In this document: piece by piece, positions 25,902 through 41,824 of the stretch
Layout of the letters: the number at the start of each line of letters is the position of its first letter
How positions within the stretch are numbered: position 1 is the stretch's first letter
NCBI RefSeq assembly: GCF_921292975.1
Contig: NZ_CAKLCM010000003.1
Span: forward strand, 930,001 to 994,000
Reading direction: 5' to 3'
DNA: 64,000 nt
DNA from: Vibrio hippocampi
GTDB taxonomy: Bacteria; Pseudomonadota; Gammaproteobacteria; Enterobacterales; Vibrionaceae
The notes under the pieces: generated by a model
Told to the model about the DNA's origin: nothing
The model's input: only the letters and a program-made list of their open reading frames with translations
The model's database searches: none
Made by a program: the position numbers and the translations under genes

Positions 25902-25923
25902 CGTGTTGTCCTCGTTACTGTGC

Positions 25924-28900
25924 TTAGTTTTCGATGAGAGTCGAAGCTTCGTTTGTTGCCTGTTGTTCTTCACCTTTGTAGAACAGTTTGTACAGTGCTG
26001 GCATCACGAACAGTGATAGGAAAGTCGCGGCGGCGAGTCCCCCGATAATCGTTGCTGCCATCTGGTCGAACAGTAAGTCGGTCATTAACGGAATCATACC
26101 CAACATCGTGGTTAGTGCGCCCATTGAGATTGCCATGGTGCGGTTCATCGTGGCTTCTTTAATGGCACTCGATAGGTCAGCGCCGTTTTTGCGTTCCAGC
26201 TCAATCTGGTCAATCAAAACAATGCCATTTTTGATGATCATACCGGACAAACAAATCAGTCCGACTAACGCCATGAATCCAAACGCTTTATCAGATATCA
26301 GTAGCATGGCTACAACACCTGTTAACGCCAGTGGCACGGTGCCAAAAATAATCACCGGTTGCTTAAAGCCGTTAAACATCGCCACCATAATCACCACCAT
26401 CACTAACATCGCAGCAGGTAAATTGGACAAGGTATCAACAATTGCTTTGTTTTCGTCGTAGTATTCACCACCCCACTTCAAGGTGTAACCATAAGGTAAT
26501 TCAATCGCTTCAATGGCTTCTCGGCTATATTCACGCGCTAGTGCGACTGTTGTGCCCTCAACGCCCGCTTGAACGGTGATAGTCGGTACACGGTCACGAC
26601 GCCAAATCATCGACTCTTCCATTTTCAACTCAAAGCCATCAACAACTTGCCCCAGTGGCACCGTGTGAACACCCAATAGTGACTGCACAGGAACTGAGTT
26701 CAAATCCGCCAGCGTGACATCACGACCACGTACTTGGATTGGAATAATTTCATCTTCAAGTTTCATTTGGCTAATCGGGAAGCCGTCTGATACGCGTTTC
26801 AATGCCAAAGCAATGTCTGTGCGGTTAATACCCGCTCGACGCGCTTGGTCTTCATTAATTAATGGTTTAATCACCTTACTTGGCTGACGCCAGTCATCAC
26901 GAATGTATTTGGCATTTGGGTTTTGCTCTAGTATCGCTTGCGCTTGCAACGATAACTCTTTCAACACTTTCGGATCGGGACCGCTAAAGCGCGCTTCGAT
27001 GCTATATTTGTCTGAAGTCGCAAGTTTAAGCGCTCTAAAGCGAGGCTCAGCTTGTGGGAATTCCGCTTTCAGCCAAACATCACCACGTTCGATTAATGGT
27101 TTAATTGATGCATAGTCCACGGTGTTAATCAGGATCTGTCCATACGCCGAGTCAAAAGGTTCTGGTTCAACCGTTACTGAGAAACGTGGCGCACTTGCCC
27201 CAACATAAGTAGAGAAGTTCTTCACTTCAGGTTGCTGTAGTAGCCAGTCCTCGATCTTCATCATGTCCTGTGACGTTTGCTCAATTTGCGCACCATTCGG
27301 TAGCCAGTAATCAAGGAACACCATTGCTCGGTCAGACGTTGGCATAAACACAACGCGAACTTGTGGAATAAGCGCAACCGTAATCATAATCAGTGGAATA
27401 ACCGCAGACAGACCTTTTTTCGGGTTCTCAACCATCCAGCTCACCGCTTTGCGATAGCCAATAGCAAATTTTGACTGTTTTTTCTCTGCCGTTTGGGGCA
27501 CAGGTTTAATCCAGAACCAACACATAAGTACCGTCACTGACACTGCCACCAACCATGAGAACATTAACGAAGACATCATGATTTGAGGTACCGACTCTGA
27601 AAACTCAGACGCATCGGTATTAGAAAGGATGACCGGTAACGTCCCCATTGCGGCAATTACTGTCGCAGCAAATAGAGGTAGCGCTGTTTCTTTGACCGCT
27701 TCAATGCCCGCTTTGGTTCTTTCAATGCCCTTGTTCAGTTTTACCGTAAATAGGTCAACAATCACGATGGCGTTGTCCACCAACATACCAAGTGCAAGGA
27801 TAAAGGTACCCAATGAAACACGCTGCAAGTCTATTGACATCATGTTCATAAACACAAGGGTACAAAGAATGGTAATCAACAAGCTAGAGCCAACAATCAT
27901 GGCGCTCTTAACACCCATGAAGACCCAAAGCACGGCAACCACAATCAGGACACTTTCTAGAAGGTTACTGACAAAATTATTGATTGATTTGGTCACTTCG
28001 TCCGGCTGGAAGGCAATATCTTCAATCTCAACACCCAAAGGTAGCTTCTGTTTGAAGTCGGCAATGGTTTCGCGCAGTTCGTCACCTAATGAAACCACGT
28101 TCACGCCCGGTACTGGGCTCACTGCAAGGGTAATCGCATTTTGACCGTTGAAGCGGCTAATGCTTAATGCGGGCTCTTGATAACCCATTGAAATATCCGC
28201 AATGTCACCCAAACGAATCAGACCGGTACTTAAACCGCCAACACCACCTTTAATCATAAAGTTCGCGACGTCTTCAACCGATTGGAACTCACTATTTTGT
28301 TCCATACGAATACGCTCGATACCCGCTTTGAAGTGACCCGCATCATAAATCGCATTTTGGCTATTAAGCTGACTAATGACTTGCGCCGCCGAGAGTTGGA
28401 ACTGAGCTAAGCGCTCTTCAGGAAGTTCAATGTTCACCACTTGTTGCTGAACACCGTGCAGTTCGATTTTCTTGATCCCTTTCACCGCTTTTAGGCGACG
28501 TTGAAGCTCTTGGGCGTGATCTTTCAATTCTGACATTGGAATACCGTCACTGGTCATCGCGAACAACATTCCATACACCTCTGAAAACTCATCCTGCACC
28601 ACACTGATTTGCGCAGTTGCGGGCAGTTGGAGCTTACCGTCACTCACTTTACGGCGCAGTAAGTCCCATTCTTGCGGTAACTGTGAAGACTGGATGTCTT
28701 CACGCAAGTCAACGAATATCATTGACATGCCCGGCGTTGAAAGTGATCGCAATTCGTCCAGTGACGCCATTTCTTGAAGTTTTGTTTCGACTTTATCGGT
28801 GACCTGCTCTTCCACCTCTTTAGCGGAAGCACCAGGATATAAGGTGACAATAACCGCACTTTTGACTGTAAAGGTAGGGTCTTCCAACTTACCGAGTTTA

Positions 28901-28992
28901 AAGTAAGAAGCGACACCCGCGATAATACAAAGAACAGTGAAAAACGCGACGAAGGTTCTTTGTCTAATAGCAAATTCTGCAATATTCATCAT
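25924..28992 (-). CDS. RND multidrug efflux permease (HAE-1/AcrB family)
   Basis: 1022 residues, the usual size. It begins NIAEFAIRQRTFVAFFTVLC and has LEDPTFTVKSAVIVTLYPGA, characteristic of the HAE-1-like group that includes cation and drug pumps. Membrane helices flank two large periplasmic loops. The proton-relay region LGMLVDNAIVIVD in TM4 carries the expected Asp pair and FMALVGLICLSGMIIKNGIV follows in the second half. Two ATGs overlap the start, and the second (28989) is better spaced from AAGGAG. It sits 7 nt after the adaptor gene. Substrates are unknown; the shared motif with the PldA and barrel promoters suggests an envelope-stress role. Confidence 0.93.
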   Translation of the reverse strand: MMNIAEFAIRQRTFVAFFTVLCIIAGVASYFKLGKLEDPTFTVKSAVIVTLYPGASAKEVEEQVTDKVETKLQEMASLDELRSLSTPGMSMIFVDLREDIQSSQLPQEWDLLRRKVSDGKLQLPATAQISVVQDEFSEVYGMLFAMTSDGIPMSELKDHAQELQRRLKAVKGIKKIELHGVQQQVVNIELPEERLAQFQLSAAQVISQLNSQNAIYDAGHFKAGIERIRMEQNSEFQSVEDVANFMIKGGVGGLSTGLIRLGDIADISMGYQEPALSISRFNGQNAITLAVSPVPGVNVVSLGDELRETIADFKQKLPLGVEIEDIAFQPDEVTKSINNFVSNLLESVLIVVAVLWVFMGVKSAMIVGSSLLITILCTLVFMNMMSIDLQRVSLGTFILALGMLVDNAIVIVDLFTVKLNKGIERTKAGIEAVKETALPLFAATVIAAMGTLPVILSNTDASEFSESVPQIMMSSLMFSWLVAVSVTVLMCWFWIKPVPQTAEKKQSKFAIGYRKAVSWMVENPKKGLSAVIPLIMITVALIPQVRVVFMPTSDRAMVFLDYWLPNGAQIEQTSQDMMKIEDWLLQQPEVKNFSTYVGASAPRFSVTVEPEPFDSAYGQILINTVDYASIKPLIERGDVWLKAEFPQAEPRFRALKLATSDKYSIEARFSGPDPKVLKELSLQAQAILEQNPNAKYIRDDWRQPSKVIKPLINEDQARRAGINRTDIALALKRVSDGFPISQMKLEDEIIPIQVRGRDVTLADLNSVPVQSLLGVHTVPLGQVVDGFELKMEESMIWRRDRVPTITVQAGVEGTTVALAREYSREAIEAIELPYGYTLKWGGEYYDENKAIVDTLSNLPAAMLVMVVIMVAMFNGFKQPVIIFGTVPLALTGVVAMLLISDKAFGFMALVGLICLSGMIIKNGIVLIDQIELERKNGADLSSAIKEATMNRTMAISMGALTTMLGMIPLMTDLLFDQMAATIIGGLAAATFLSLFVMPALYKLFYKGEEQQATNEASTLIEN

Positions 28993-28999
28993 CGGCTCC

Positions 29000-30085
29000 T
29001 TAGTCTTTGTCCACTACGATGAGGTCACCCACCATTTGGTTTGGTTTAAGGAAGCCGACACCTGCCGTAATAACATTGTCACCCGATTGAATAGCTCCAC
29101 TTACACACACATCATTGCCTAATAGGTGCTTAACTTTTACCGGTGTTGCTACTGCTTTTGAATCTTGAACGACATAGACACTGTCCGAACCTTGATATTG
29201 AAATAGCGTTGAGTAAGGCAAACAATGTACATCGGCAGCGGTATCAAACTGGGCTTCAACGATCACCGATTTTCCTGGTAGCAAAGTGGCTTCGTTTTCA
29301 TCAAGCTCGAAAACCACGGAATAAGTTTGCTTAATTGGGTGAGGCACCGTGCCGATTTCCGTCGCGACGGCCGAAAGGCTTACCTCAGCACTATGCCAAA
29401 ACACCATCGCCGTTTGACCATAATCGAAACGCTCAATCAGGCTTTCTGGTACGTCTATTTCCGCTTGAAGCTTAGAAGGCTTATGAATTTTAAAGGCAGG
29501 AATGCCCGGCAGAACTTGTTCAAACTGTTCACTGTTTTGTTCACCAATGACACCGTCAAACGGGGCAATCAACGTGGTATAACGAATCGCATCTTCGGCT
29601 TTTTTGATGTTTTGCTGAACCACTTCTATCGCGGCTTTAGTGCGTTCATAACCACTTTTTGCACGGTCAAGATTCACGGTTGCAATCGCATTGTCTGCTA
29701 TCGCTTGTTTTACGCGGCGTAGTTCAGAACTTGCCAGTCGGTGGGCAGACTCAGATTCACTCAAGCGAGCCTGTAGCTCCATCAGTGCAACTTGATAGTC
29801 GTGCTGATCAAGTTGCGCCAGTTTGTCGCCTTTTCTGACCATATCACCCGGTGCAACATACACCTCGGTAATGGTGCCCGGTACGCGGAAAGCAACATTG
29901 GCTTCGTCTACGGACTCAAGGCGTCCGGCAAAAAATTGTTGATACGTCGAATCTTGAGCACCAAGTTCCACCACATTAACTGGACGTGGTGACTTATCGA
30001 CAACTTTCACTTCTTCTTGGCTGCAACCCGTAATGGCGGCAGCAATAGCAAGTGCAACTAGGGTATTTTTTGATTGGCTTTTCAT
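29000..30085 (-). CDS. RND efflux periplasmic adaptor (membrane fusion protein)
   Basis: 361 residues from the ATG at 30085 (AAGG 7 nt upstream; the longer frame reaching 30220 runs through the promoter). Lipobox ITGC makes it a lipoprotein. It has a barrel-sandwich half (GTITEVYVAPGDMVRKGDKL), an alpha-hairpin, the second half (APFDGVIGEQNSEQFEQVLP) and a beta-barrel (VVFELDENEATLLPGKSVIV). It bridges the pump and the outer-membrane channel. It is first in the operon, so the two TTACTAGT motifs 116-154 nt upstream probably control all three genes. Confidence 0.92.
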   Translation of the reverse strand: MKSQSKNTLVALAIAAAITGCSQEEVKVVDKSPRPVNVVELGAQDSTYQQFFAGRLESVDEANVAFRVPGTITEVYVAPGDMVRKGDKLAQLDQHDYQVALMELQARLSESESAHRLASSELRRVKQAIADNAIATVNLDRAKSGYERTKAAIEVVQQNIKKAEDAIRYTTLIAPFDGVIGEQNSEQFEQVLPGIPAFKIHKPSKLQAEIDVPESLIERFDYGQTAMVFWHSAEVSLSAVATEIGTVPHPIKQTYSVVFELDENEATLLPGKSVIVEAQFDTAADVHCLPYSTLFQYQGSDSVYVVQDSKAVATPVKVKHLLGNDVCVSGAIQSGDNVITAGVGFLKPNQMVGDLIVVDKD

Positions 30086-30200
30086 AATCATACCTTCAGT
30101 TTTGGGTTTAGTGTGAATTGTCGGTGAACCGCAGTTGAGTTCACCGAACCCGTTTCGTATTTGATGAGGTAATTGTGGGGGATGAAGGTAAAAGCCGATA

Positions 30201-30239
30201 CTCGGGGAGTTACTAGTCACACCTGTAAAAATTACTAGT
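30201..30239 (+). promoter_or_regulatory. Two CTCG-N5-TTACTAGT motifs upstream of the RND operon
   Basis: CTCGGGGAGTTACTAGT (30201-30217) and CTGTAAAAATTACTAGT (30223-30239) lie 22 bp apart in the same orientation. They belong to an eight-copy family spread over four intergenic regions between 30.2 and 36.7 kb. Confidence 0.75.
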
Positions 30240-30277
30240 CGTAAGGCGAATTGTTTCTAACCAGCCGCAAAAATACG

Positions 30278-30370
30278 GCTGACTTGCCCAAGAGAAAGTC
30301 AGCAAAAAAGAGTCGGTGATGACCAATAAGTCGCTATCACATAAGTTGTCATGGCATAGATTGCCATGAC
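30278..30370 (-). terminator. Hairpins after pldA
   Basis: Two perfect stems lie downstream of pldA on the minus strand: GTCATGGCA / TGCCATGAC (30348-30356 and 30362-30370), and GCTGACTT / AAGTCAGC (30278-30285 and 30296-30303). The second, read leftward, is followed by CGTATTTTTG and is the likelier terminator. Confidence 0.55.
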
Positions 30371-30395
30371 AATAGTTACAGCAAGGGAATGAAAA

Positions 30396-31295
30396 TCAAA
30401 TCGGGTCCGTCAACGCGAGACCGATACCATAGCGACGTTGAGAGTGGTTATAGTCAATCAATGACTCTCCATAACCATCGGTATATTGAATGTAGCCTCG
30501 TAGACGCTTCCAGATAGGGAACGTGACACCCAACTCAACAAACCCTTTGTGGGTCGAAAAGTTATTACGAACCAAACCGAACAGTTTTATGTTCTGATAT
30601 TTGTACGCCGCGGTGGCTTCAAAGTTGCCCATGTAGTCGTCGATATCTGGATTGTCGTCATCTTCTGCACTTTCACTTATTCTTACCCAAGGTCGAATGG
30701 CAAAGGCCGTATTGTCTTGCTCCCATAGCGCCAGTAAATACGCTCTATTCCAACTTCTTGATAGGGGCTCACTTCGACCATTGGATTGGTGTTCAACCCC
30801 AGCACCCCAAGCAAACTTGTGGTCAAAGTGGGTCCAGTTAGTCGGTGCCGCATAGAACAGCTCAGGCTGGTAATTGGTCTCTCTAAATGGCGCTGAAATG
30901 TCATCCGAATAAATTTGCCACCAAGATTGAGCGGTAAAGCCAAAGTAAAGTGCATCACCTTCAACAAACATATCACCATAGTTAAGCGGTACTTTTATAC
31001 TCAGTTGGATCTTGGCTTCCTGATCATCAAAGTTCTCCTGCCAGCTCGGATTGCTGGTGTACGCCTCTCTATTGATCGAATTCGTTTTGGTATATGGAAG
31101 GATATAGTTCATTTTGTGCGGTGTAAGCACAAACGGGTTATCTTGTGTCTCATGTTCAAGTTGAAGTCGTTCTTCTACCGCTGACAGTTTGGCGGGTTCT
31201 CCTTCATCGTGTTCATTACTTTCATGTGCCACTAAAGAAAAACTCACAGGAAATAAAACGCAGACTTTAACAATATTTCTATTTATACCTTTCAT
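30396..31295 (-). CDS. pldA: Outer membrane phospholipase A
   Basis: 299 residues from the ATG at 31295 (AGAGAG upstream; the frame opens further out without a site). A signal peptide is followed by a 12-strand barrel. The catalytic signature HQSNGRSEPLSRSWNRAYL holds the His, Ser and Asn triad of PldA. The enzyme removes phospholipids from the outer leaflet when membrane asymmetry is lost and is calcium-dependent after dimerisation. It is expressed divergently from two small barrel proteins, and the region between carries three TTACTAGT motifs, which suggests regulation with the RND pump. Confidence 0.9.
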   Translation of the reverse strand: MKGINRNIVKVCVLFPVSFSLVAHESNEHDEGEPAKLSAVEERLQLEHETQDNPFVLTPHKMNYILPYTKTNSINREAYTSNPSWQENFDDQEAKIQLSIKVPLNYGDMFVEGDALYFGFTAQSWWQIYSDDISAPFRETNYQPELFYAAPTNWTHFDHKFAWGAGVEHQSNGRSEPLSRSWNRAYLLALWEQDNTAFAIRPWVRISESAEDDDNPDIDDYMGNFEATAAYKYQNIKLFGLVRNNFSTHKGFVELGVTFPIWKRLRGYIQYTDGYGESLIDYNHSQRRYGIGLALTDPI

Positions 31296-31371
31296 ATTAA
31301 ACTCTCTAAATTTGGACACGTTGTTATTTATTCTATAGAGCAAATATTAAACAATATCAATAAATACCTTA

Positions 31372-31469
31372 ACTAGTAATACTACTAATTAAGTTGCTTT
31401 ACCTGACGAGTCATTAAGTTATTTATCCTGACTAGTAATTTTACCTAGGTTCACTAGTAACTTTTACAG
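31372..31469 (-). promoter_or_regulatory. Three TTACTAGT motifs between pldA and the first barrel gene
   Basis: On the minus strand: 31372-31388 (weak left half), 31431-31447 (TAGGTAAAATTACTAGT) and 31453-31469 (CTGTAAAAGTTACTAGT). The last two are 22 bp apart, the same spacing as the pair at 30201 and 30223. ACTACTAAT (31381-31389) is a further partial match. Confidence 0.75.
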
Positions 31470-31575
31470 TTATTGCAAACAAAAAAACTTGCGATTATAG
31501 CGTCAAGCCAAAAGGGACAACGCATAAAACCCTGGCTACCTATTTTAAGCCACGTTATATATTTAGGATGTAATT

Positions 31576-32091
31576 ATGAAAAAGTTAACCACTATCTCTA
31601 CGCTTCTGCTTACAGCACTTGTTACCGCACCTACCTACTCGTCGGGTTTCGATGTGGACTGGTTTGTTGGTGCCGGTGTCGGTTATCAAAATGACGATGT
31701 AAGCGGTGTTAACGCAAGCAACGGTGAAGATGCCACCTTTGAAATTCGTAGTGGTGCAATTTTGCAACAACACCACAGATTATCAGCCACCTATGGTTAC
31801 ATGGATAAACTTGAACAGCACAAATTCCTAACGTCATACGACTACCTACTGCCTGTCTACGACAATATTAACCTGTTTGCTGGTGTGTCATTAGGCGCTG
31901 TAGACAGTGACGTGGCAAACGAAAGCTCGACTGAATTTGTCTGGGGCGGTCAAGTCGGTGCGATGTATGTCATTAATGATAATTGGACCACTGAAGTGTC
32001 TTATCGATATTTAGCACAAGACTTTGAAGAGAACCATGTGGAAATCGACAACTCTCAGCAAGTAATGGTTTCCGTCGACTACCATTTCTAA
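31576..32091 (+). CDS. Small outer-membrane beta-barrel protein (OmpA-like transmembrane type), copy 1
   Basis: 171 residues. The signal peptide ends near TAPTYSSG. The mature part has alternating strands with aromatic ends (DWFVGAGVGYQNDDVSG, RLSATYGYMDKLEQHKF, INLFAGVSLG, FVWGGQVGAMYVINDNWTTE) and ends in VSVDYHF, the C-terminal Phe used for outer-membrane assembly. It is an eight-stranded barrel in size, with no OmpA peptidoglycan domain. It is about 80 percent identical to the next gene. AGGATGTAATT precedes the ATG. Function is unknown; the shared promoter motif suggests an envelope response. Confidence 0.85.
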   Translation: MKKLTTISTLLLTALVTAPTYSSGFDVDWFVGAGVGYQNDDVSGVNASNGEDATFEIRSGAILQQHHRLSATYGYMDKLEQHKFLTSYDYLLPVYDNINLFAGVSLGAVDSDVANESSTEFVWGGQVGAMYVINDNWTTEVSYRYLAQDFEENHVEIDNSQQVMVSVDYHF

Positions 32092-32102
32092 CAAGAACAT
32101 AC

Positions 32103-32133
32103 ATTTAAAGAGGGTAAATCGCGCTCTTTAAAT
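32103..32133. terminator. Hairpin between the two barrel genes
   Basis: ATTTAAAGAG (32103-32112) and CTCTTTAAAT (32124-32133) form a perfect 10-bp stem, 11 nt after the first barrel stop. The T-tract is poor, so read-through to copy 2 is possible. Confidence 0.5.
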
Positions 32134-32295
32134 AATACACCTGATCTATTGACAATCATATAATTTGTAAGTTTCTAGTCAAATTTACCGTTAACGAATG
32201 CAATATTTGAATCATAATTTATAGCCAATAATGACTCTCCATTAATATTTGGCTCAATCACTTTTTAATACCACATTTATATTTAGGATTTTATT

Positions 32296-32811
32296 ATGAA
32301 AAAGCTAACAGCAACCTCTACATTACTTCTAACCGCTCTTGCGACAGCACCAACATTCGCTTCAGACTTCGGTGTAGATTGGTTTGTCGGTGCCGGTGTC
32401 GGTTATCAAAACGATGACGTCAGCGGTCACAACACAACCAACGGCGAAGATGCTTCTTTTGAAATCCGTAGTGGTGCCATTCTTGATGACAGTCACCGCG
32501 TAATGGCGACCTATGGTTATATGGATAAGCTAGAGCAAAGTAAGTTCATCGCCTCTTATGATTACCTACTGCCAGTTCACGAAGACATCAACTTGTTTGC
32601 TGGTGTTTCGTTAGGCGCTGCAGACAGTGAAGTGGCAGACGAAAGTGCAACAGAATTTGTTTGGGGTGGTCAAGTCGGCGCAATGTACGTTATCAACGAT
32701 AACTGGACCACTGAACTGTCGTATCGCTACCTTGCACAAGACTTTGAAGAAAACAATGTAGAAATCGATAGCACTCAACAAATTATGGTCTCTGTCGACT
32801 ACCGCTTCTAA
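32296..32811 (+). CDS. Small outer-membrane beta-barrel protein (OmpA-like transmembrane type), copy 2
   Basis: 171 residues, a tandem duplicate of the preceding gene with the same start context (TTTAGGATNNNATTATGAAAAA) and the same strand order, ending VSVDYRF. Differences cluster in the loops (VSGHNTTNGEDAS, ILDDSHRVMA). A TCTAGTCAAATTTACC word at 32174 may be a degenerate TTACTAGT motif. A strong terminator follows. The duplication suggests dosage or antigenic variation, which is inference. Confidence 0.85.
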   Translation: MKKLTATSTLLLTALATAPTFASDFGVDWFVGAGVGYQNDDVSGHNTTNGEDASFEIRSGAILDDSHRVMATYGYMDKLEQSKFIASYDYLLPVHEDINLFAGVSLGAADSEVADESATEFVWGGQVGAMYVINDNWTTELSYRYLAQDFEENNVEIDSTQQIMVSVDYRF

Positions 32812-32832
32812 GTTTTGCGCGCGAGTAGACAG

Positions 32833-32863
32833 AAAGAGTGAGCATTTAGCTCACTCTTTTTTG
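32833..32863 (+). terminator. Terminator after barrel copy 2
   Basis: AAAGAGTGAGC (32833-32843), loop ATTTA, GCTCACTCTTT (32849-32859), then TTTT. The remaining 280 bp up to 33147 hold no gene that I can see. Confidence 0.85.
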
Positions 32864-33147
32864 TTAACACTAAAAACAAATGCGGTCATAATAGGTCAAA
32901 GTGCCGCTCCAACGATATAACGACTCAGCACCATACGTCATTGTCAGCATAAATGCATACGGCTTAAGGCTGTTCCTGCACGGTATTTGTATGTATTCAC
33001 TTATCGTATGGAAGCATACTTAACCCGTCATCGCGCTCAATTGCCGTTGTCGATATAATCACCGCCTGCCCTCACTAGATCGACCAGTGATTGACATTCC
33101 ATCAGGGCGTACGTCAATGCAATACCAACGAAAGAGGAAGTTGAACC

Positions 33148-34410
33148 ATGCCCCACCCAGAAATGAACCTGATTTATGGCTCTGCTAAAGTCTGTGACAG
33201 TCACATTGTCGAGATGAGTGAAGAGCTCTGTCATCTTCTTGGGGGTGTCCAACAACCAACCACGCTACCGCTGTCGTTGATTGATCTGTTTGCTGACACA
33301 GAGAGAGAACGAATTGACGCCGAGATTGCACTGATTCTGCAAGGCAATACGACATCTCAACCACAACTTCTCGACATGAAGAATCAATATCTAGGGACTA
33401 TCCCAGTACTACTGATTCTTAACAAAACAGAGTGGCTTAATCGACCTGCTGTAGAGATGACGATCATTGACATACAGTTTACTTACTCACAGTGCCTAAA
33501 AGCTCGAGAACAAGACCAGATGTTTCGCGATATGATCTTACACTCTGCTCAGGGGATACTTGTCCACAGAGCATTTAAGCCACTCTTCGTCAATAACTCC
33601 TGGGTGAAACTGCAAGGCGGCGATTCGGTTGAGCAAGTCCTCGACATGGAAACCATTCTGCCACTGCTGCCTAGTCATGTGATCGAAGGCGCTCAACAGC
33701 GATATGCCGAACTAATAGAGAGCAAGCATCCTAAAGCGAGCAGTGTTGTGAAAAATATTGGCTTAGACGGCATCAGTCGATATTTCAATATCTATGACAA
33801 CGTTATTTACTGGCAAGGAGAATTGGCGGTGCAAGTGGTGCTTGAAGATGTCACAGACAAAGTGGCGTTGGAAAATCAGCTTAAATACCAAGCCAATCAT
33901 GATGATCTCACCGGACTGTTGAATCGCAGAGCCGTTTATAGTTGGGCACAAGATCAGATCACCCAGCACTCACCACTCACCTGCTTACTAATGGACATAG
34001 ACAATTTTAAGCAGATTAATGATACCTATGGTCACGGTGTCGGCGATGATGTCATTCGAACGTTATCGAATATCGCCAATGAGACCATCGCGAGTGTCGG
34101 TGGTATGACGGGTCGCTGGGGAGGCGAAGAGTTTATTGCTTTTGTTCCCCAACTATCCATGCAGCACATACAATGTGTAGCGCAAACCATCTGTGAGAAG
34201 TTCAGAAATACCCACCTTTACAGCGCTCACAATCAGGCATTTAGCGCGACGGTAAGTATTGGTATTAGCTATATGGATACAGTAAGTGAAGACCAATGTT
34301 TAGATGCGCTTGTGCAACGAACAGACCGTTTGTTGTACACCGCCAAAGCCAAGGGTAAAGATCGCGTTTGCATCAAAAATCGCCGACATGAACACTTACT
34401 CGCGATCTAG
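33148..34410 (+). CDS. PAS-PAS-GGDEF diguanylate cyclase
   Basis: 420 residues, soluble. PAS-like regions lie at about 10-110 and 125-240, and the GGDEF domain at about 243-405. HDDLTGLLNRRAVYSWA opens the domain, MDIDNFKQINDTYGH binds metal, and RWGGEEF (active GGEEF at 325-329) makes cyclic di-GMP from two GTP. No RxxD inhibitory site precedes GGEEF, so product inhibition is probably weak. GAGGAAG lies 7 nt before the ATG. Its 3' end overlaps the convergent small gene by 15 bp. The sensory signal is unknown. It may act with the degenerate HD-GYP regulator of the 19 kb operon, but this is speculation. Confidence 0.92.
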   Translation: MPHPEMNLIYGSAKVCDSHIVEMSEELCHLLGGVQQPTTLPLSLIDLFADTERERIDAEIALILQGNTTSQPQLLDMKNQYLGTIPVLLILNKTEWLNRPAVEMTIIDIQFTYSQCLKAREQDQMFRDMILHSAQGILVHRAFKPLFVNNSWVKLQGGDSVEQVLDMETILPLLPSHVIEGAQQRYAELIESKHPKASSVVKNIGLDGISRYFNIYDNVIYWQGELAVQVVLEDVTDKVALENQLKYQANHDDLTGLLNRRAVYSWAQDQITQHSPLTCLLMDIDNFKQINDTYGHGVGDDVIRTLSNIANETIASVGGMTGRWGGEEFIAFVPQLSMQHIQCVAQTICEKFRNTHLYSAHNQAFSATVSIGISYMDTVSEDQCLDALVQRTDRLLYTAKAKGKDRVCIKNRRHEHLLAI

Positions 34411-34746
34411 ATGGTGAAATGATGCCATCATCGATTCCAACAGTGGCACCAGTTTAGACTCCAGCTCACTATACGCAATATAGGTATATTGAAGATTCGG
34501 GGTAAATGATGCGCGACTAAAGTCATCGACGTAAGGACCAATCACCACGACTCTGTACGCGAGGATTAAATCAGATTGCGCAAAAAAATCACGGAACCAT
34601 TTGCTGTCGAGTATGAGCCCATGGATGCCTTCGTCACTGTCAGCGACGTCAATTTGCCCGTAATTCAAGTGTATTTCGCTCAGCCGAAAGCATAAATTTT
34701 TTACCGCAATAAACAACCTTTCATCACCAATAAATTGAACCTTCAT
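34396..34746 (-). CDS. Small hypothetical protein, possible pseudo-receiver
   Basis: 116 residues, no signal or membrane segment. The pattern VQFIGDERLFIAVKNLCF, GLILDSKWFRDFF, YRVVVIGPYVDDFSRASF, YIAYSELESKLVPLLESM alternates strands and helices somewhat like a receiver domain, but the acidic pocket and Lys are absent. I do not recognise a family. It overlaps the end of the diguanylate cyclase gene tail to tail, and it is divergent from the NarL-type regulator, with one TTACTAGT motif between them. That motif could drive either gene. Confidence 0.6.
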   Translation of the reverse strand: MKVQFIGDERLFIAVKNLCFRLSEIHLNYGQIDVADSDEGIHGLILDSKWFRDFFAQSDLILAYRVVVIGPYVDDFSRASFTPNLQYTYIAYSELESKLVPLLESMMASFHHLDRE

Positions 34747-34803
34747 TTTATGTCAATTCTCCATTTACTATGATCAGATTGTCGCCGTGTTCAATGATTT
34801 GGG

Positions 34804-34838
34804 ATACTCGAAAAATTACTAGTTTGTATCACGAGTAT
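34804..34838. promoter_or_regulatory. TTACTAGT motif inside a 7-bp inverted repeat, upstream of the response regulator
   Basis: CTCGAAAAATTACTAGT (34807-34823) matches the shared motif. It is also flanked by ATACTCG (34804-34810) and CGAGTAT (34832-34838), a perfect inverted pair. It lies 102 nt before the regulator start, which suggests autoregulation. Confidence 0.75.
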
Positions 34839-34924
34839 TTCCTTTATGATCGGCTGAACAATCACTTGAGAGTTGAAAGTGATAACGCTACAGTGATGAG
34901 TATCAGGATACAAAGGAAGTAGCT

Positions 34925-35560
34925 ATGACACCGAAAACGGTATTGCTTGCAGACGACCACACGATGGTCGCTGAAGGCATTAAAAATTTACTGGCGAGCG
35001 AATATGAAGTGGTTGCCATCGTCGAAGACGGCAATGCCTTAGTTCAAAAAGCAAAAGAGCTAAAACCAGACATCATCGTTTCCGATATTTCAATGCCAAT
35101 CATGAACGGCATCAACGCAGCCGAAAAAATTATCGCGACCAACAAAGAGGTAAAGATCGTTCTGTTAACGATGCACCCTGAGCTTAAATATGCGATGAAA
35201 GCGCTGGATATTGGTGTCCACGGATACTTACTAAAGCACGCGGCTCCAGAAGAATTGCTCACCGCCATTAAAACCGTGCTGCTTAATAAGACCTATATCA
35301 CTCCAACGCTCGCCGCAGACATCATGGATGCTTACAAGAACAATCAAGGAAAGGCAGAAGACCCACTTGATATTCTGACCTCTCGCCAAAGACAGGTTCT
35401 ACAGCTTCTTGCCGAAAGTCACTCAGCCAAAGAAATTGCCAATATCCTCAATGTCTCAAGCCGAACAGTTGAGTTCCACAAATATAAGATGGTAGAAATA
35501 CTCAAGCTCAATAGTGCCAGTGAGCTGGTTCCTTTTGCCATCAAAAACGGCTTGGTGTAA
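34925..35560 (+). CDS. NarL/FixJ-family response regulator
   Basis: 211 residues. The receiver has the acidic pair at 10-11, phospho-acceptor D54 (DIIVSDISMPIMNG) and K104 (YLLKHA). A LuxR-type helix-turn-helix ends it: LTSRQRQVLQLLAESHSAKE, IANILNVSSRTVEFHKYKM. AAGGAAGTAGCT precedes the ATG. No kinase gene is adjacent. The best candidate partners are the HisKA_3 kinases at 38.4 kb and 13.4 kb, as that kinase class pairs with NarL-type regulators. I infer it binds the CTCG-N5-TTACTAGT motif found at its own promoter and at those of the efflux, PldA and HlyD genes. Confidence 0.92.
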   Translation: MTPKTVLLADDHTMVAEGIKNLLASEYEVVAIVEDGNALVQKAKELKPDIIVSDISMPIMNGINAAEKIIATNKEVKIVLLTMHPELKYAMKALDIGVHGYLLKHAAPEELLTAIKTVLLNKTYITPTLAADIMDAYKNNQGKAEDPLDILTSRQRQVLQLLAESHSAKEIANILNVSSRTVEFHKYKMVEILKLNSASELVPFAIKNGLV

Positions 35561-35640
35561 CCCGCTAGATTGCAGACGCTAAATTGCAAACACTATTTTG
35601 CGTACGCTATATTACAAACGCTATATTTAAGCCGCACTAT

Positions 35641-36534
35641 TTAAACGACATAATATGACAACAGAGCCTCGACAAAACAGTGTTCAGGCTCTGTCAATTG
35701 CTTCGTTGCTTTATAAGTAATGTAAGCATTCTCTTGGCTAGAAAAGCTCTGTTCAAACAACGTGACCGCAGCTCCGTTTTTCACGGAATCATTCATCACA
35801 ATATCAAAGTTCCACGATACCCCAATATCGTTTAACAAGGCATCTCGTGCTTTAATCGCATCATCGACTATCAGCGTTGGGTTAACTTTGAGTTCATGAA
35901 ATTTATTGCCCATCTTATAGTGCCATCGACCAATTTCTTTGCTAGGTTGCTGAATCGCAATACATGGAATGCCAGTGTGCAGAATATCTTCCGGGTGTTG
36001 AATCTCTGGGTAACGAGTTAACAATTGAGGCGGCGCATAAAAATTTCTCTCGGCTTGCAGGAAGTGAATCACGCAATTGTTTCTCGTCTCCATTTTGTGA
36101 CTCTGAAGCCTTAGCACTTCCCCCACTTTGCGGTGTTGCTCTCGATTGGTTAGCGAACGCACCTCCAAAACCACGTCAGGGTGCAAGGTTCTAAAGTAAG
36201 GAAGAAAATCATTCACCAATAAAGTAGCAATAGGTTGAAGGGCTTCGACCACGACATGACAAGGGTTCTCCGACTCTTGGGTCGCAAGCTTCTTCAATGC
36301 ATTCAAGCTCTGCTTTACTTCAATCGCTCCACTTAGAAACTGCTCACCAAATTCTGTCAGCACAACGCCAGCTTTCGAGCGCAAAAACAGCTGCGATCTG
36401 ATTTTTCCTTCCAGCTCTAAAATTCTACGACTCACGGTGGGTTGCGGAATATTCATCGCCTCAGCCGCGTCACTGAAGCTTGAAAAATTCGTGACCTCCA
36501 CAAAGAACAACACCTCTTTACTCTGAATTTGCAT
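35641..36534 (-). CDS. LysR-type transcriptional regulator
   Basis: 297 residues from the ATG at 36534 (a TTG ten codons earlier is unlikely). The N-terminal winged helix is clear: FSSFSDAAEAMNIPQPTVSR, RRILELEGKIRSQLF. The effector domain follows at about 90-290. It is divergent from the small membrane protein/HlyD operon, the usual arrangement for a LysR regulator and its target. Two copies of the TTACTAGT motif lie between them, so control may be shared with another regulator. Inducer unknown. Confidence 0.88.
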   Translation of the reverse strand: MQIQSKEVLFFVEVTNFSSFSDAAEAMNIPQPTVSRRILELEGKIRSQLFLRSKAGVVLTEFGEQFLSGAIEVKQSLNALKKLATQESENPCHVVVEALQPIATLLVNDFLPYFRTLHPDVVLEVRSLTNREQHRKVGEVLRLQSHKMETRNNCVIHFLQAERNFYAPPQLLTRYPEIQHPEDILHTGIPCIAIQQPSKEIGRWHYKMGNKFHELKVNPTLIVDDAIKARDALLNDIGVSWNFDIVMNDSVKNGAAVTLFEQSFSSQENAYITYKATKQLTEPEHCFVEALLSYYVV

Positions 36535-36595
36535 TGATTGGCACCAAATAATGATTACTGTCAATTATGCTAGCCTGTTGTGGTTGCCAATACCC

Positions 36596-36696
36596 CTCGG
36601 GAATTTACTAGTGTTGAGTGAAAGCGTTCAGTGCTGACGTCAATGCCCAAACCGCTCACTGGTATTTATTGTTTCACCGACTAGCAATTTTACGAG
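36596..36696. promoter_or_regulatory. Two opposed TTACTAGT motifs between LysR and the HlyD operon
   Basis: CTCGGGAATTTACTAGT (36596-36612, plus strand) and, on the minus strand, CTCGTAAAATTGCTAGT (36680-36696). They face each other across 67 bp. The second has one change in the core (TTGCTAGT). Confidence 0.7.
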
Positions 36697-36787
36697 CTGT
36701 GAATTTCTTGCCATGACTTAAGATCTAACCAATCCCAATTTTGTTACCCAACAGAATACATATTTATCCTTATTGAGGAGAAAGGTT

Positions 36788-37132
36788 ATGAGTCTAGTCA
36801 GCGTTCCTTTTGTCGACAGTACCAGCGATATTGTGCTTCATGGCATTGCAGCCTTCGTCCTGATAGTGTCCGTTTGCGCCGCCGCTATTGCGTTCTGGAA
36901 ACTACACGAACTTCCCATTCATAAAGCTCATGCTAGTGAACACCGCCAGTTAGGGCTTATTACCATACTCACCTGGGTTGGCTTTGTCTGGCACTGGGTT
37001 TGGGTTCTCGCCATCATTATCGCTTTCCTCGATGCTGAGCAAGCCATCATTCGTCTGCGCGATCTATGGCATGGTGATGCCAAAGATGCGAAATATTCAC
37101 TGGATGAAACTCAAGGAGATAAATCATGTTAG
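36788..37132 (+). CDS. Small inner-membrane protein paired with HlyD (YiaW/YibI-like)
   Basis: 114 residues from the ATG at 36788, with GAGGAG upstream (the TTG at 36773 overlaps that site). Two membrane helices (about 16-36 and 55-80) flank a His-rich loop (KLHELPIHKAHASEH). A charged C-tail follows. It overlaps the HlyD gene by 7 bp. The arrangement matches Escherichia coli yiaW-yiaV and yibI-yibH, where a DUF3302 protein accompanies a HlyD protein. Sequence likeness to DUF3302 is limited, so the family name is tentative. Confidence 0.65.
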   Translation: MSLVSVPFVDSTSDIVLHGIAAFVLIVSVCAAAIAFWKLHELPIHKAHASEHRQLGLITILTWVGFVWHWVWVLAIIIAFLDAEQAIIRLRDLWHGDAKDAKYSLDETQGDKSC

Positions 37133-38349
37133 AAGGTCTGGCTATTTGGTCACTATTTATCTATATCCTGCGTCTGCTTGGGATCCCATGGAACAAACCG
37201 TTCAAGCTGTTTGCCTATATTGGCGGCGGACTTTGGTTAGGCTTTGTTTGGATCGGGCTCATTAATTACACTCCGATGGATTTATCTGGCGGTTCGGTTG
37301 TACAAGCGCCACATGTCCAACTGAGACCGGGCAATACGCAGATCAAAGGCAAGGTTCATAAGATACATATTGAACCCAATTCAAAGGTAGAAAAAGGACA
37401 GCTCATCTTTGAGTTAGATTCTGAAATTTACCAGATCCGCGAGCATCAAGCAGAGACCAAGAAACAAGCTGCTGAAGTCGAATACATGGTGGCTAAAGAG
37501 GAAATCGAACTGTCTCAGACGCAATATCAAACCGGTTTGATTAATCTTGAGATCTCAAAGAGCAACCTCGATTCAGCGAAAGATGACCTCGCATTGCAAA
37601 CTAATACACTGAATCGCTATATCGCCCAAAACGACAAGGTGAAATACACCATTACCGAGCGTGTAATGGACGAGCAACGTACCAAGGTCTCTCTGGCGAA
37701 GAACAATGTTCAATCTCTTGAAAATGAAATTGCGCGCAATCAGGTACAAGTCACCGAGTCAAAAATCTATATCGAGAAAGCAAAGCTTAACGTTCTCAAT
37801 GCAGAAGCGACATTGAACACTGTCAAAGAAGAACACGCACAAGCGCAATGGAACTTAACCCAGACCAAAGTGTATGCCCCTTCAAATGGTTTTGTGACCA
37901 ACTTTATTCTGCGTGAGGGTCAATATGTGGGTATCCTTTCGCGTATGCAGATGTACACCGACGAAAAGTACGTGCTGATGCGAGTGAACCACCAAGCGAT
38001 CAGAAACGTCAAAGCAGGTCAACTGGCTGAGTTTGCTTCCCCAGTCTACCCAGGCAAAATATTCTCTGCCGAAGTTCAGGGCATTGTTGAAGCGACGGGA
38101 GAATCCGAAGCGGGAAGTATGGGGCGTGAACTATCGGTGTCTAAAACGACACTGCAGAATGTGAAAAACAAATACCACTTTGTGCGTCTAAAGCTAAACG
38201 AACCCGAGGGCTATGACATTCCCGTTGGCGCAGTCGGTCTTGCATGGATAAGCGGCGAAAAGCCAAGCCATGCTCTCTCATTCCTTGATGTTATCCGTGG
38301 CATCATCATCCGAATGAAAGCACAGATTTACTACTTTTATTCAGTATAA
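37126..38349 (+). CDS. HlyD/EmrA-family membrane fusion protein (YiaV/YibH-like)
   Basis: 407 residues. Two N-terminal membrane helices (about 5-50) precede the biotinyl-lipoyl-like half (VQLRPGNTQIKGKVHKIHIE, EPNSKVEKGQLIFELDS). A long coiled-coil hairpin follows (about 100-235). The second half is YAPSNGFVTNFILREGQYVG. The C-terminal part has an extra hydrophobic end. Such adaptors work with small membrane proteins, and no MFS or ABC partner is encoded beside it. Translation is coupled to the preceding gene by overlap, and a terminator follows. The substrate is unknown. Confidence 0.88.
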   Translation: MLEGLAIWSLFIYILRLLGIPWNKPFKLFAYIGGGLWLGFVWIGLINYTPMDLSGGSVVQAPHVQLRPGNTQIKGKVHKIHIEPNSKVEKGQLIFELDSEIYQIREHQAETKKQAAEVEYMVAKEEIELSQTQYQTGLINLEISKSNLDSAKDDLALQTNTLNRYIAQNDKVKYTITERVMDEQRTKVSLAKNNVQSLENEIARNQVQVTESKIYIEKAKLNVLNAEATLNTVKEEHAQAQWNLTQTKVYAPSNGFVTNFILREGQYVGILSRMQMYTDEKYVLMRVNHQAIRNVKAGQLAEFASPVYPGKIFSAEVQGIVEATGESEAGSMGRELSVSKTTLQNVKNKYHFVRLKLNEPEGYDIPVGAVGLAWISGEKPSHALSFLDVIRGIIIRMKAQIYYFYSV

Positions 38350-38419: not shown

Positions 38420-41400
38420 TTACATTGGTCGCTGCTGGCTGGCATTAAACACAAGCTCTATTGTCGTGCCCTTATTCTCTTCGGATGAGATATCCAGTTG
38501 CCCACCAATCAAACGTGAGCGCTCCATCATACTCTTAAGCCCTAAACCCGGCGCAATACGTGCCGCTGCAACATCAAACCCCATGCCATCATCGGTGATT
38601 TGTAGTACGAAGTTGCCACGAACGGTCGCGATATTCACTTCGACTCTTGAAGCTTCTGAATATTTAGAGACATTTCTCAGTGCTTCCTGAACGATGCGAA
38701 ACACCGCTAGTTCAGAGTCACTGGCTAAATCCAGCTTCTTGGTAGAGCAGAAAAATGACACCTCGATCTCTTCTCTGCGCCTAAAATTATCAATTTCTGA
38801 ACGCAACGCTTCAACCAGCCCCAAGTCATCCAAAATTGATGGGTGCAAGCGACGAGACAAACCGTGTGTGTCTTCCGCAATGCCAACCAACCCTTTCTTT
38901 ATCTTTTTAAGAGATTGTTTGGTGGTCACATCTTCTATGGTCATTTCGAGTGTACCTGCCTCAATCGACAACACGGCAAGACGCTGGCTTAAATCATCAT
39001 GCAGTTCTCTTGCCACACGCTTGCGCTCTTCTTCTTGCACATTCAGCAGTTTCGATGCCAATTCTCTAAGCTCTTTCTGGCCTTCAATCAATGCTTGCTG
39101 GCTGCTTTTGAATAAGCTGATATCTTGAATAATCGCCGAACCGCCGACTAACTTGCCATTGGAACCAAATTGACATTCGGCAATTTCATTCACCCACTTG
39201 AGTCCATCTGGTTGTTCAAGACGGTACTCGACGTTTACCAAGCCCGTTGCTAATGCCTTAGCCCAAGCGGATTGATACTGCTCGCGGTCTGGTTGGTAAA
39301 TCATTTGCACAAAATCGAGACGTGACATCGACCGACCTTGAGCGACACCAATAATATGTGCAGCCTCTTGGGACAAGCTATGTAGACGATTTTCACTATC
39401 AAACTCTAAGCTACCAAGCTTGGCGACTCGCTGTGCGTTACCTAGTTGGTGACTGGTTTTCTGTAACATTGCCAGTGTTTTTCTGCGGTTGTAATAAGCG
39501 ATAGAAACCGTGACCGAAATAAACAGCAAACTGATGCCCAAGCCCCAGAGTAAATAGGGTTGCCAGCGGTTTTTCTCGATCACCGTGACATTGCCCCACT
39601 TCTCGGTCAGTAGCGTCATCTGCTCGGAACCAATGGATGCAATGACTTTGTTAAACAAACTGACTAGCTCAGGTTTAGAGGGATGGACACCAATGGCGAT
39701 CTCAAGTGAATATTCAGTGTCTCCTGACACCTTAATATTGTTGATTCCCATGGTTTGAGCAAGGTATCTCACGATCATCGGATTCTCAATCACCGCGTCC
39801 ACTTCGCCATTAGAAAGCGCTCGAAGACTGTCTTGCAGCGTCCGATACTGTTCGATTTTTATTTGTGGGTATTCGGCTTTTATTTTTTCGACGATACCAC
39901 TGCCTTTGGCACCACCAATTTTCTTGCCGATTAAATCGGTAATGTTCGATAACAGCTGTTTGTCTAATTGGGTATGAATGGAATAAGTGAGCTTGTGTGT
40001 CGGATGAGTAAACAGCAGCTCTTTCTTGCGTTCTGGCGTCACGTTCATCGTCATAACAAAATCAAGTTCACCGTCAACCAGCGCATTATAGGTATCTTTC
40101 CAGCTTTCGTAGGCGACAAGATGTGAGCGTAAATCATAGTGAGATTCAAAACGATCAAGGATATCAACCGCTGCGCCCCCCAGTTCCCCTTTGTCATCAA
40201 TATAGCCAAAGGGGGCTGCGCGTAATGCCGAACTGAATGCAAGACGGGGGTGACGTTGTAACCACTGTTTTTCTTCCGTGCTCAAGGTGTCAATCAAATC
40301 ATTGCGTTCACGGGTAATCGTCATCCATTTATCGCGTAAGTCTCGGAGTTCATCCCGAGTGATCGACTCAATCGCTTTATCAACAGCAGAAATCAGCAAA
40401 GGCCAGTCGTCTCGTATCGCTAATCGCGCTTTATTGGCAAGATGAACGGATTCGATTTCCAAGTAGCCCTTAATTTCGACATTAGAAATGAAATTTTTGT
40501 AGAGGTGAGTATTACATGTGGTAACTTCGCACAAGTAATAGTCTGCCTCACCCCGCAGTACCGCATTGATTCCCTCTCCTTGGTTGCTGTAGATCTGAAC
40601 ATTCAACTCTGGATAGTTTTTACTTAGATAACGTTGCTCTAGATAACCCCTCGTCGCAGCGATGACCTTGTCACCTGCTTGATCGAGCGATTCAATCGGT
40701 TCAGCGCCCGCTCGCCCAAAAAATGCGGTTTCAGATCCTTCAAAATAGGACGAGGTAAAGTCCATATACTGATCAATCTCTTCACGGTAACGGATAAACT
40801 GTAAAACATCGAGATTGCGGTCTTTTGCCATATCAAGCTGTTGATCCCAAGTCTTGCTGGCGTCAAACACAAATTGGATACCCAGCCGTTTGGCGATCAA
40901 GTCAAGATAATCAATCGAATAGCCTTTTAACCGACCATTTTTTTCATACACAAAAGGAGCAAAATTTTCATAAGCAGAGACTCGAATCGTCGGTGCCTTT
41001 AGTAACCAATTACGTTCTTCTTGGGTCAGGTTAAGCTCGACATCATTATTGCGAAAATCAATAAACCATTTTTGCTTGAGCGCATCGACATCAGCAGGGT
41101 CAAGACGCTCGCGTGCCTGTTCAAACCGATTTCTCAACGCTTCTGGGAATGCTTTGCTGTACATCACATGCACAGGTTTAAAGTGAGATTGGATAAATTC
41201 TGGCGCTGGCAGCACTCGTAGGTTAGGGATCAGTTCCGCTCGTTGGATATGTAAGCCAGTGGCAACATCAATAAATGTCACATCGGCAGTACCAAGCGCT
41301 ACCATCTGCAAGGCTTGTTTTAAGTTTTCGGTCTCGACGATCTGAGCTTGTGGGAAGTTCGCCTTAAAACTGTTGGTAATACTAAAGCCAACTGGACTGG

Positions 41401-41824
41401 CAATGATTAAGTTTGGCAACGTTTCAAGTGTCAGCTGCTCAACACGCTCTGTTTGACCTTCTCGCCAAAATGTCCCGACAAAGCGCGGAAGCAGCACATC
41501 GCCAAAAACAAAGTCATCATTATAGCGATCGACCTTGGCACCTTCGGTGATATAACCTTCCAGACTCGTGACCGCATGTTCTAACAACTTCAGGCGATTA
41601 GGAAACACTTCCCATTCCAGCTCAACATTGGCTTCTTCAGCAACAAGCTCATAGTACTCAGTGAAATACCCGGTAGGTCGCCCGTCTTCAAGGTAGGTAA
41701 AAGGCGCAATACTCCCCTCGGGTAAGGCTATCTTAATTTTCTCCATCGCCTGTGCAGGGCTAATCGAACAGATAGAAACAAACAATAAAATAATAAAAGA
41801 ATTCAAACAGGTTGTCGCTTTCAT
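38420..41824 (-). CDS. Sensor histidine kinase with three tandem SBP_bac_3 domains
   Basis: 1134 residues from the ATG at 41824 (AAGGA upstream). After a signal peptide there are three amino-acid-binding-type domains at about 25-255, 270-505 and 520-755. The last two begin with the linker LTQEERNWL or LSTEEKQWL and then an I-R-V or L-A-F strand. A membrane helix (about 765-785), PAS (about 810-920), HisKA_3 with H942 (ARELHDDLSQRLA) and HATPase_c (DDGMGFD, GLGLKSM) follow. EvgS and BvgS have two such sensor domains but a different kinase class. The kinase core is paralogous to the 13.4 kb gene. It probably signals to a NarL-type regulator, most simply the one at 34.9 kb. Ligand unknown. Confidence 0.9.
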   Translation of the reverse strand: MKATTCLNSFIILLFVSICSISPAQAMEKIKIALPEGSIAPFTYLEDGRPTGYFTEYYELVAEEANVELEWEVFPNRLKLLEHAVTSLEGYITEGAKVDRYNDDFVFGDVLLPRFVGTFWREGQTERVEQLTLETLPNLIIASPVGFSITNSFKANFPQAQIVETENLKQALQMVALGTADVTFIDVATGLHIQRAELIPNLRVLPAPEFIQSHFKPVHVMYSKAFPEALRNRFEQARERLDPADVDALKQKWFIDFRNNDVELNLTQEERNWLLKAPTIRVSAYENFAPFVYEKNGRLKGYSIDYLDLIAKRLGIQFVFDASKTWDQQLDMAKDRNLDVLQFIRYREEIDQYMDFTSSYFEGSETAFFGRAGAEPIESLDQAGDKVIAATRGYLEQRYLSKNYPELNVQIYSNQGEGINAVLRGEADYYLCEVTTCNTHLYKNFISNVEIKGYLEIESVHLANKARLAIRDDWPLLISAVDKAIESITRDELRDLRDKWMTITRERNDLIDTLSTEEKQWLQRHPRLAFSSALRAAPFGYIDDKGELGGAAVDILDRFESHYDLRSHLVAYESWKDTYNALVDGELDFVMTMNVTPERKKELLFTHPTHKLTYSIHTQLDKQLLSNITDLIGKKIGGAKGSGIVEKIKAEYPQIKIEQYRTLQDSLRALSNGEVDAVIENPMIVRYLAQTMGINNIKVSGDTEYSLEIAIGVHPSKPELVSLFNKVIASIGSEQMTLLTEKWGNVTVIEKNRWQPYLLWGLGISLLFISVTVSIAYYNRRKTLAMLQKTSHQLGNAQRVAKLGSLEFDSENRLHSLSQEAAHIIGVAQGRSMSRLDFVQMIYQPDREQYQSAWAKALATGLVNVEYRLEQPDGLKWVNEIAECQFGSNGKLVGGSAIIQDISLFKSSQQALIEGQKELRELASKLLNVQEEERKRVARELHDDLSQRLAVLSIEAGTLEMTIEDVTTKQSLKKIKKGLVGIAEDTHGLSRRLHPSILDDLGLVEALRSEIDNFRRREEIEVSFFCSTKKLDLASDSELAVFRIVQEALRNVSKYSEASRVEVNIATVRGNFVLQITDDGMGFDVAAARIAPGLGLKSMMERSRLIGGQLDISSEENKGTTIELVFNASQQRPM

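Follow-up and report, generated by a model that had tools for sequence, protein, structure and literature searches.

A palindromic operator with fixed promoter spacing and its probable NarL/FixJ-type response regulator in Vibrio hippocampi

Results

The stretch of Vibrio hippocampi DNA analyzed here (64,000 nt, hereafter the window; NZ_CAKLCM010000003.1, positions 930,001-994,000 of the forward strand) carries copies of an 18-bp inverted repeat in front of envelope and export genes. This repeat is very probably the operator of a NarL/FixJ-type response regulator (RR) encoded at 34925-35560 (+), which, judged from sequence, would be phosphorylated by the sensor kinase encoded at 38420-41833 (-) and would activate the target promoters, its own included. 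The repeat stands at a fixed distance from the -10 element, recurs in tandem at 22 bp, is conserved in front of orthologous genes and co-occurs with the RR.

Operator motif in the window

An earlier sequence-only reading of the window had described eight copies of a 17-bp motif in four intergenic regions, all of which were found in place. Their core is TTACTAGT in seven copies and TTGCTAGT in one (36680-36696). Four copies have CTCG and two have CTGT as left half, separated from the core by 5 bp, and both pairs described as 22 bp apart have exactly that spacing. A ninth site with 21.7 bits was found at 21578-21597 (+). The 17-bp motif is the better conserved portion of the 18-bp inverted repeat ACT(A/C)GnAAAnTTAC(T/C)AGT, of which ACTAGTAAATTTACTAGT is the perfect form and ACTAGTAAA and TTTACTAGT are the symmetric halves.

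The core TTACTAGT occurred eight times in the window against 1.29 expected, a count reached by none of 100 shuffles. One of these occurrences, at 7035-7042 (-), is isolated, lacks the remaining palindrome and lies outside the copies described earlier. The loose 17-mer with up to three mismatches was not enriched in the window (48 observed, 39.3 expected), so that the signal resides in the stricter form. Across the own genome, YTN7TTRCTAGT gave 26 matches against 33 + 37 for the reversed control. The motif is thus rarer than its control and the genome-wide count shows no enrichment; the signal consists of the cluster, with 7 of the 26 matches inside the 6.5-kb stretch that holds the eight copies, and of the sites in relatives.

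A matrix of 22.1 bits in all was derived from 33 sites outside the window in 11 other genomes that carry the RR. At 12 bits or more it detected eight sites in the window, compared with a mean of 0.45 and a maximum of 2 in 20 Markov shuffles. Seven of these are copies described earlier, each with at least 14 bits, and one is the new site at 21578-21597, while the remaining earlier copy scored 10.5. Since the seed pattern of the matrix was written after the window had been seen, this test is strong yet not fully blind. In 19 stretches (412 kb), 64 matches of at least 14 bits were found, against 1, 3, and 2 in three Markov shuffles. Over 21 stretches, 68 of 71 such matches fell outside open reading frames (ORFs) of about 100 codons or more, with non-ORF sequence making up 72,918 of 453,112 bases (16%); the pairs L011/L130, L012/L132, and L015/L131 overlap, and some matches in this tally are therefore counted twice. 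Equal frequency in coding DNA, which the sequence-only reading had named as evidence against a regulatory site, was accordingly not what the matches showed.

Promoter geometry

Sites were oriented with the CGAGT half facing downstream, and the matrix did not include the -10 bases. TANNNT was found 20 or 21 bases past the end of the 20-bp motif in 32 of 66 distinct sites (offset 21 in 24, offset 20 in 8), while other pairs of adjacent offsets gave a mean of 3.3 and a maximum of 7. With the window sites excluded, the count was 29 of 58 against a control mean of 3.0. The mean -10 score at the fixed place was 0.79, compared with -1.65 for the best of 500 shuffles. A -10 element at this distance sets the operator against the predicted -35 position, which it either adjoins directly or overlaps with a single base. 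Among 31 pairs of matches within 130 bp of each other (threshold 10 bits), 11 were 22 bp apart, while any other distance occurred at most three times.

Thirteen site-gene pairs were scored in the window. In the eight taken to be proximal, offset 20 or 21 holds a -10-like hexamer that ranks 1-3 of 42; the other five, distal or facing the wrong way, have none there. As sites were assigned to genes with orientation and -10 in view, the operators listed in the next section illustrate the spacing, and its proof is the statistic over 66 sites.

An RR that binds the operator and mainly represses, blocking RNA polymerase at the -35 edge until a signal relieves it, would fit a site that abuts or overlaps this position, and the sign of control is not readable from sequence. 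We nevertheless consider repression unlikely, because the exact 20/21-base spacing and the tandem placed 22 bp upstream reproduce the geometry published for the activator BvgA (as given in PMC7250471), and the many imperfect -10 hexamers in the window fit promoters that need help.

Putative target genes and operators

The likely targets, as judged from operator position, all lie within one 17-kb stretch: RR, HYP116, HYP203, MFP-RND-OMF, pldA, OMP1, lysR, and SMP-HlyD. The envelope target set of the sequence-only reading, with the regulator's own gene among it, is thereby supported and extended by LysR, HYP116, and HYP203. The genes are as follows.

20896-21507 (-), HYP203, predicted membrane protein, no Pfam match; putative target
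24387-30085 (-), MFP-RND-OMF operon with MFP (29000-30085), RND pump (25924-28992), and outer membrane factor (OMF, 24387-25898); putative target
30396-31298 (-), pldA, outer membrane phospholipase A, PLA1 domain; putative target
31576-32091 (+), OMP1, 171-aa outer membrane beta-barrel, OMP_b-brl domain; putative target
from 33148 (+), GGDEF protein
34396-34746 (-), HYP116, receiver-like fold on weak evidence; putative target
34925-35560 (+), RR, NarL/FixJ-type, Response_reg and GerE domains; proposed binder
35641-36534 (-), LysR-type regulator, HTH_1 and LysR_substrate domains; putative target
36788-38349 (+), SMP-HlyD operon (small membrane protein, SMP, and HlyD-type adaptor); putative target
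38420-41833 (-), Venus-flytrap sensor kinase, SBP_bac_3, PAS, HisKA_3, and HATPase_c domains; proposed cognate kinase

The operators found in the window are listed with their matrix score and the -10-like hexamer of the gene to which they were assigned.

21578-21597 (+), for HYP203, 21.7 bits; TAAACT at 21551-21556 (-), offset 21, rank 1/42; missed by the earlier reading
30199-30218 (+), proximal to the MFP-RND promoter, 19.3 bits; CACAAT at 30172-30177 (-), rank 1/42
30221-30240 (+), distal second MFP-RND operator, 18.9 bits; 22 bp upstream of the proximal one
31371-31390 (no strand assigned), for pldA, 17.5 bits (18.0 with the symmetric matrix); TAATAT at 31344-31349 (-), offset 21, rank 3/42
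31430-31449 (-), weak distal operator, 10.5 bits; 22 bp from the operator at 31452-31471
31452-31471 (-), for OMP1, 19.6 bits; GATTAT at 31493-31498 (+), rank 1/42
34805-34824 (+), common to the divergent RR and HYP116 promoters, 28.8 bits; TATGAT at 34845-34850 (+), offset 20, rank 1/42 for RR; GACAAT at 34778-34783 (-), offset 21, rank 3/42 for HYP116
36594-36613 (+), for lysR, 19.3 bits; TAGCAT at 36567-36572 (-), rank 2/42
36679-36698 (-), for SMP-HlyD, 20.4 bits; TAAGAT at 36719-36724 (+), offset 20, rank 1/42

The shared RR/HYP116 operator is flanked by a -10 element on either side, so that one palindrome can serve both genes. The operator pair at 22 bp in front of MFP recurs in genome G105 (L126, 9441/9463). 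The leftward gene run that starts with MFP continues through the RND pump and the outer membrane factor to a Na+/glutamate symporter and a patatin-like protein. HYP203 is, we assume, reminiscent of HdeD-like proteins. OMP1 and OMP2 (from 32296, +) are tandem, highly alike 171-aa barrels at 31576-32811 (+), and the matrix scan of the window found no operator of 8 bits or more before OMP2.

HYP116 has no Pfam match. Its AlphaFold2 model (pLDDT 79) gave mostly receiver or receiver-like domains as best PDB matches in Foldseek, with E-values of 1.2e-3 or weaker; on this model, HYP116 could be a degenerate receiver whose gene is under the RR operator.

Co-occurrence with the response regulator

Across 329 Vibrionaceae genomes, the strict core CTRGTAAWTYTNCKAG gave 14 matches in 6 of 8 genomes with the RR (RR+) and 17 matches, one each, in 17 of 321 without it (RR-). 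Presence in genomes that lack the regulator, which the sequence-only reading had also named as evidence against it, thus amounts to background (17 matches in 321 genomes versus 14 in 8). Six genomes had at least two matches, and all six are RR+. Of the 14 RR+ matches, 13 lie within 14 kb of the RR, the exception being on C1 of G176. Thirteen RR+ loci were examined, as one of the 14 matches had no locus, together with the 17 RR- loci (3 kb each). A target homologue was present in 12 of 13 RR+ loci and in none of the RR- loci, matches inside frames of at least 105 codons numbered 2 of 13 and 15 of 17, respectively, and TANNNT stood at the expected place in 7 of 13 and 0 of 17, respectively, the last two comparisons being counted by eye.

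As a search pattern across the 329 genomes, CTNKNNNANTTRCTAGT was rejected as too loose. Among the matches of this pattern, the 17-mer CTAGCAAAATTGCTAGT is shared by G043, G057, G067, and G084, which belong to another genus (g9) and have no RR match; there it is perhaps another operator or part of a conserved gene.

Conservation of operator-preceded genes

Absence from orthologous promoters, the remaining ground on which the sequence-only reading would have been abandoned, is contradicted by sites that precede orthologues of MFP-RND, PldA/OMP, SMP-HlyD, HYP116/RR, and HYP203. The synteny of these genes is shuffled among genomes, and in other genomes the sensor kinase is also preceded by a site. 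Recurrent targets further include the Na+/glutamate symporter, which in V. comitans and V. inusitatus is preceded by an operator of its own, and a DUF3187 protein, while sulfatases, a radical-SAM protein, and a DUF3179 protein were met once or twice.

In 30 HlyD loci examined from the 122 genomes having an HlyD match, a match of at least 12 bits was found in 6 of 6 RR+ and 1 of 24 RR- loci. The same threshold was applied to all 25 PldA matches, which come from 24 genomes, and was reached by 3 of 3 copies near the RR, 1 of 20 RR- loci, and neither of the 2 copies that RR+ genomes carry at other places. HlyD copies with at least 72% identity are confined to RR+ genomes (6 of 8; 222 genomes). HlyD proteins of this class are common in the genus, with matches in 122 of 222 genomes, and the own genome holds a second copy with 58% identity at G000:C3:345142-346362.

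The operator precedes HYP203 relatives in V. maerlii (L009, 44% identity) and G105 (L126, 29%). ORFs of about 200 aa behind similar sites in L126 and L134 had been considered as HYP203 orthologues and were not retained, the former at 29% identity and the latter without similarity. In V. maritimus (L134), an operator at 1688-1707 that closely resembles that of HYP203 precedes an unrelated 193-aa ORF at 1770-2351 (+); here it is apparently the promoter that persisted, with a different gene behind it.

A spreading repeat, or chance matches without regulatory role, would account for copies clustered in one 17-kb stretch of one replicon. It would not account for the fixed -10 spacing, the intergenic bias, the orthologous promoters that keep the site despite shuffled synteny, the co-occurrence with the RR or the flanking sequences, which vary from site to site, and we give it almost no weight.

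Response regulator and sensor kinase

The RR falls within the NarL/FixJ type by its matches to PF00072 (5.6e-27) and PF00196 (4.3e-15), both above cut-off. It reaches the cut-off of none of the 25 NCBIfam models shown (98 were matched). The best of them is PRK15369, which we take to be SsrB, with 154.5 bits (cut-off 242), and the curated EvgA model was matched with 82.8 bits (cut-off 251). Orthologues are sporadic: at E <= 1e-60 they occur in 8 of 329 Vibrionaceae genomes, and at E 1e-45 only the own genome was found among 398 genomes of the phylum (1/398). Regulators with at least 60% identity occur in V. maerlii, Motilimonas, V. comitans, V. inusitatus, V. maritimus, Alginatibacterium, V. 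hangzhouensis, and two Neiella. The Motilimonas RR is 86% identical to that of the window, compared with 80-82% for three Vibrio, which would point to transfer.

The sensor kinase carries tandem Venus-flytrap domains (PF00497), two of which pass the cut-off while a weak third remains below it; three are present in L136 and L017. According to PMC4352136, the number of flytrap domains in BvgS homologues ranges from one to five. The kinase core is HisKA_3 (PF07730), not the HisKA (PF00512) on which the BvgS-family set is based as PMC5829827 presents it, and the combination of flytrap and HisKA_3 domains lies outside that set. No receiver or HPt match was found in the kinase (Pfam, E 0.001), so direct phosphotransfer would be expected and no phosphorelay. 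Its best NCBIfam matches, MctS and UhpB, are both below cut-off.

Homologues of the kinase were found in the stretches of 10 of 11 other RR+ genomes and homologues of LysR in 3 of 11. These figures bear on the idea that another nearby regulator, such as the LysR-type protein at 35641-36534, is the binder and that the RR merely travels along. An operator does stand in front of lysR, and V. maerlii, G105, and V. maritimus carry a LysR homologue (37-49%) near the RR. The stretches of the other 8 of 11 hold no LysR homologue (E 1e-5) and yet carry the operator, the kinase recurs in 10 of 11 (the RR is part of each locus by design), a scan that used only the pattern arrives again at RR+ genomes, and in L018, L019, and L021 the site adjoins the RR. 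LysR as binder is therefore highly improbable. The sequence-only reading had favored the NarL-type regulator, and the regulon is borne out by co-occurrence and conservation, while the binding itself we still infer.

Distant homologues

Among 18 loci with distant RR homologues (L018-L035), three contain a match of at least 14 bits: L018 in a Desulfobacterales metagenome-assembled genome (RR 51% identical), L019 in a deltaproteobacterial one (48%), and L021 in Xenophilus (47%; 68% GC). The site lies directly behind the RR in each. L018 has two sites 22 bp apart between the RR and a receiver-only gene (8720-9145), and L019 has one at the equivalent place before a receiver-only gene (10898-11317). 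These receiver-only genes are possible counterparts of HYP116. A tree of the RR homologues carries no weight here, as six of its rows (L063, L065, L003, L004, L006, and L007) had been taken from the wrong strand and EvgA forms a long branch in it.

Comparison with known systems

The closest parallel is BvgA of Bordetella, which binds as head-to-head dimers on inverted heptads with centers 22 bp apart, the most proximal abutting the -35 element (as described in PMC7250471). The comparison covers the published site and promoter geometry. The primary BvgA site of Pfha given in PMC7250471, TAAGAAATTTCCTA, likewise consists of inverted heptads about an AAATTT center and is identical to the symmetric consensus found here at 11 of 14 positions, a match reached by 122 of 20000 random palindromes. 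Dimers at 22 bp with the proximal one at -35 (reported there for Pfha and Pptx), a two-domain receiver-HTH (helix-turn-helix) regulator, and a kinase with Venus-flytrap and PAS domains are further shared features. By their inverted heptads, 22-bp dimer spacing, and -35 abutment, the last judged by the -10 offset, the promoters of the window would be of the BvgA type. In contrast to BvgS, the kinase carries HisKA_3 and lacks matches to receiver and HPt domains. The known targets also differ, those of the window being envelope and export genes.

EvgA/EvgS of E. coli K-12 also pairs a NarL-type regulator with a Venus-flytrap kinase, and the direct targets of EvgA listed in PMC8174306 include the pump operon emrKY. 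However, the RR is only 25% identical to EvgA, the best alignment of the kinase with EvgS covers the periplasmic part at 19%, and the 12-kb evg region of E. coli contains no site of 14 bits. While evgAS is not autoregulated according to PMC8174306, the RR promoter has an operator. SsrB of Salmonella recognizes an 18-bp palindrome of two heptamers and a 4-bp spacer, but the SsrB sites in PMC2837388 keep no strict spacing to the start site, unlike the strictly spaced sites found here. A description of this operator or of the RR/kinase pair was not found in the open-access literature searched. The regulon therefore looks new, although its type, the BvgA-like principle, is already known.

Proposed mechanism and implications

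In the proposed mechanism, the sensor kinase would phosphorylate the RR, and a dimer of the RR would bind the 18-bp inverted repeat. With the -10 element starting at -12, the operator would be centered at about -43.5 and abut the -35 element, a position from which the RR, once bound, is proposed to contact RNA polymerase and to stimulate transcription. Promoters for which a single dimer does not suffice would take up a second one on the same face of the helix, two helical turns (22 bp) further upstream. The match to the BvgA site together with the geometry leads to the reading of an activator of the BvgA kind that uses one or two dimers at each promoter.

Several observations weigh against this reading. 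A site abutting the -35 element could also repress. Most loci were retrieved via the RR, and only the two pattern scans of 329 genomes were unbiased in this respect. In one of them G166 and G177 (2 of the 8 RR+ genomes) had no strict-core match, though the matrix detects sites in both, and in the other a looser pattern matched 225 of 329 genomes, so that presence did not separate the groups (30 matches in the 8 RR+ genomes). The RR+ genomes G166 and G187 have no close HlyD copy. The Alginatibacterium stretches yielded no copy of the kinase, and V. inusitatus yielded only its kinase part. Within the window, the matrix scan found no own site for the GGDEF gene (33148) or OMP2 (32296). Seven distant loci with 46-51% identical RRs yielded three at 14 bits or more and one, L020, at 12.4 bits, while three Bryobacterales loci (RR 47-48%) have no site (best 6.4) despite an identical HTH stretch, TVEFHKYKM, compared only in rows read on the correct strand.

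A wider picture, which we offer tentatively and hold to be somewhat short of an even chance, is that of a portable regulon. The flytrap HisKA_3 kinase and the regulator would have moved among Vibrionaceae, Motilimonas, Alginatibacterium, and Neiella; relatives occur in Xenophilus and deltaproteobacteria. Target genes would have been shuffled and exchanged under a single, retained promoter code, which consists of the 18-bp palindrome, a fixed distance to the -10 element, and the tandem at 22 bp. A receiver-like protein, HYP116 or the receiver-only protein of distant relatives, would be co-controlled by the operator beside the gene of the regulator and might exert feedback on the flow of phosphate.

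Sequence alone supplies an uncharacterized regulator with an exact operator, a rule for its promoters, and a list of likely targets. The strictness of this rule (a site, then 20 or 21 bases, then the -10) should make the regulon predictable in every genome with the regulator, and the findings suggest that BvgA-style stacking of dimers on promoters extends beyond phosphorelays of the Bordetella type.

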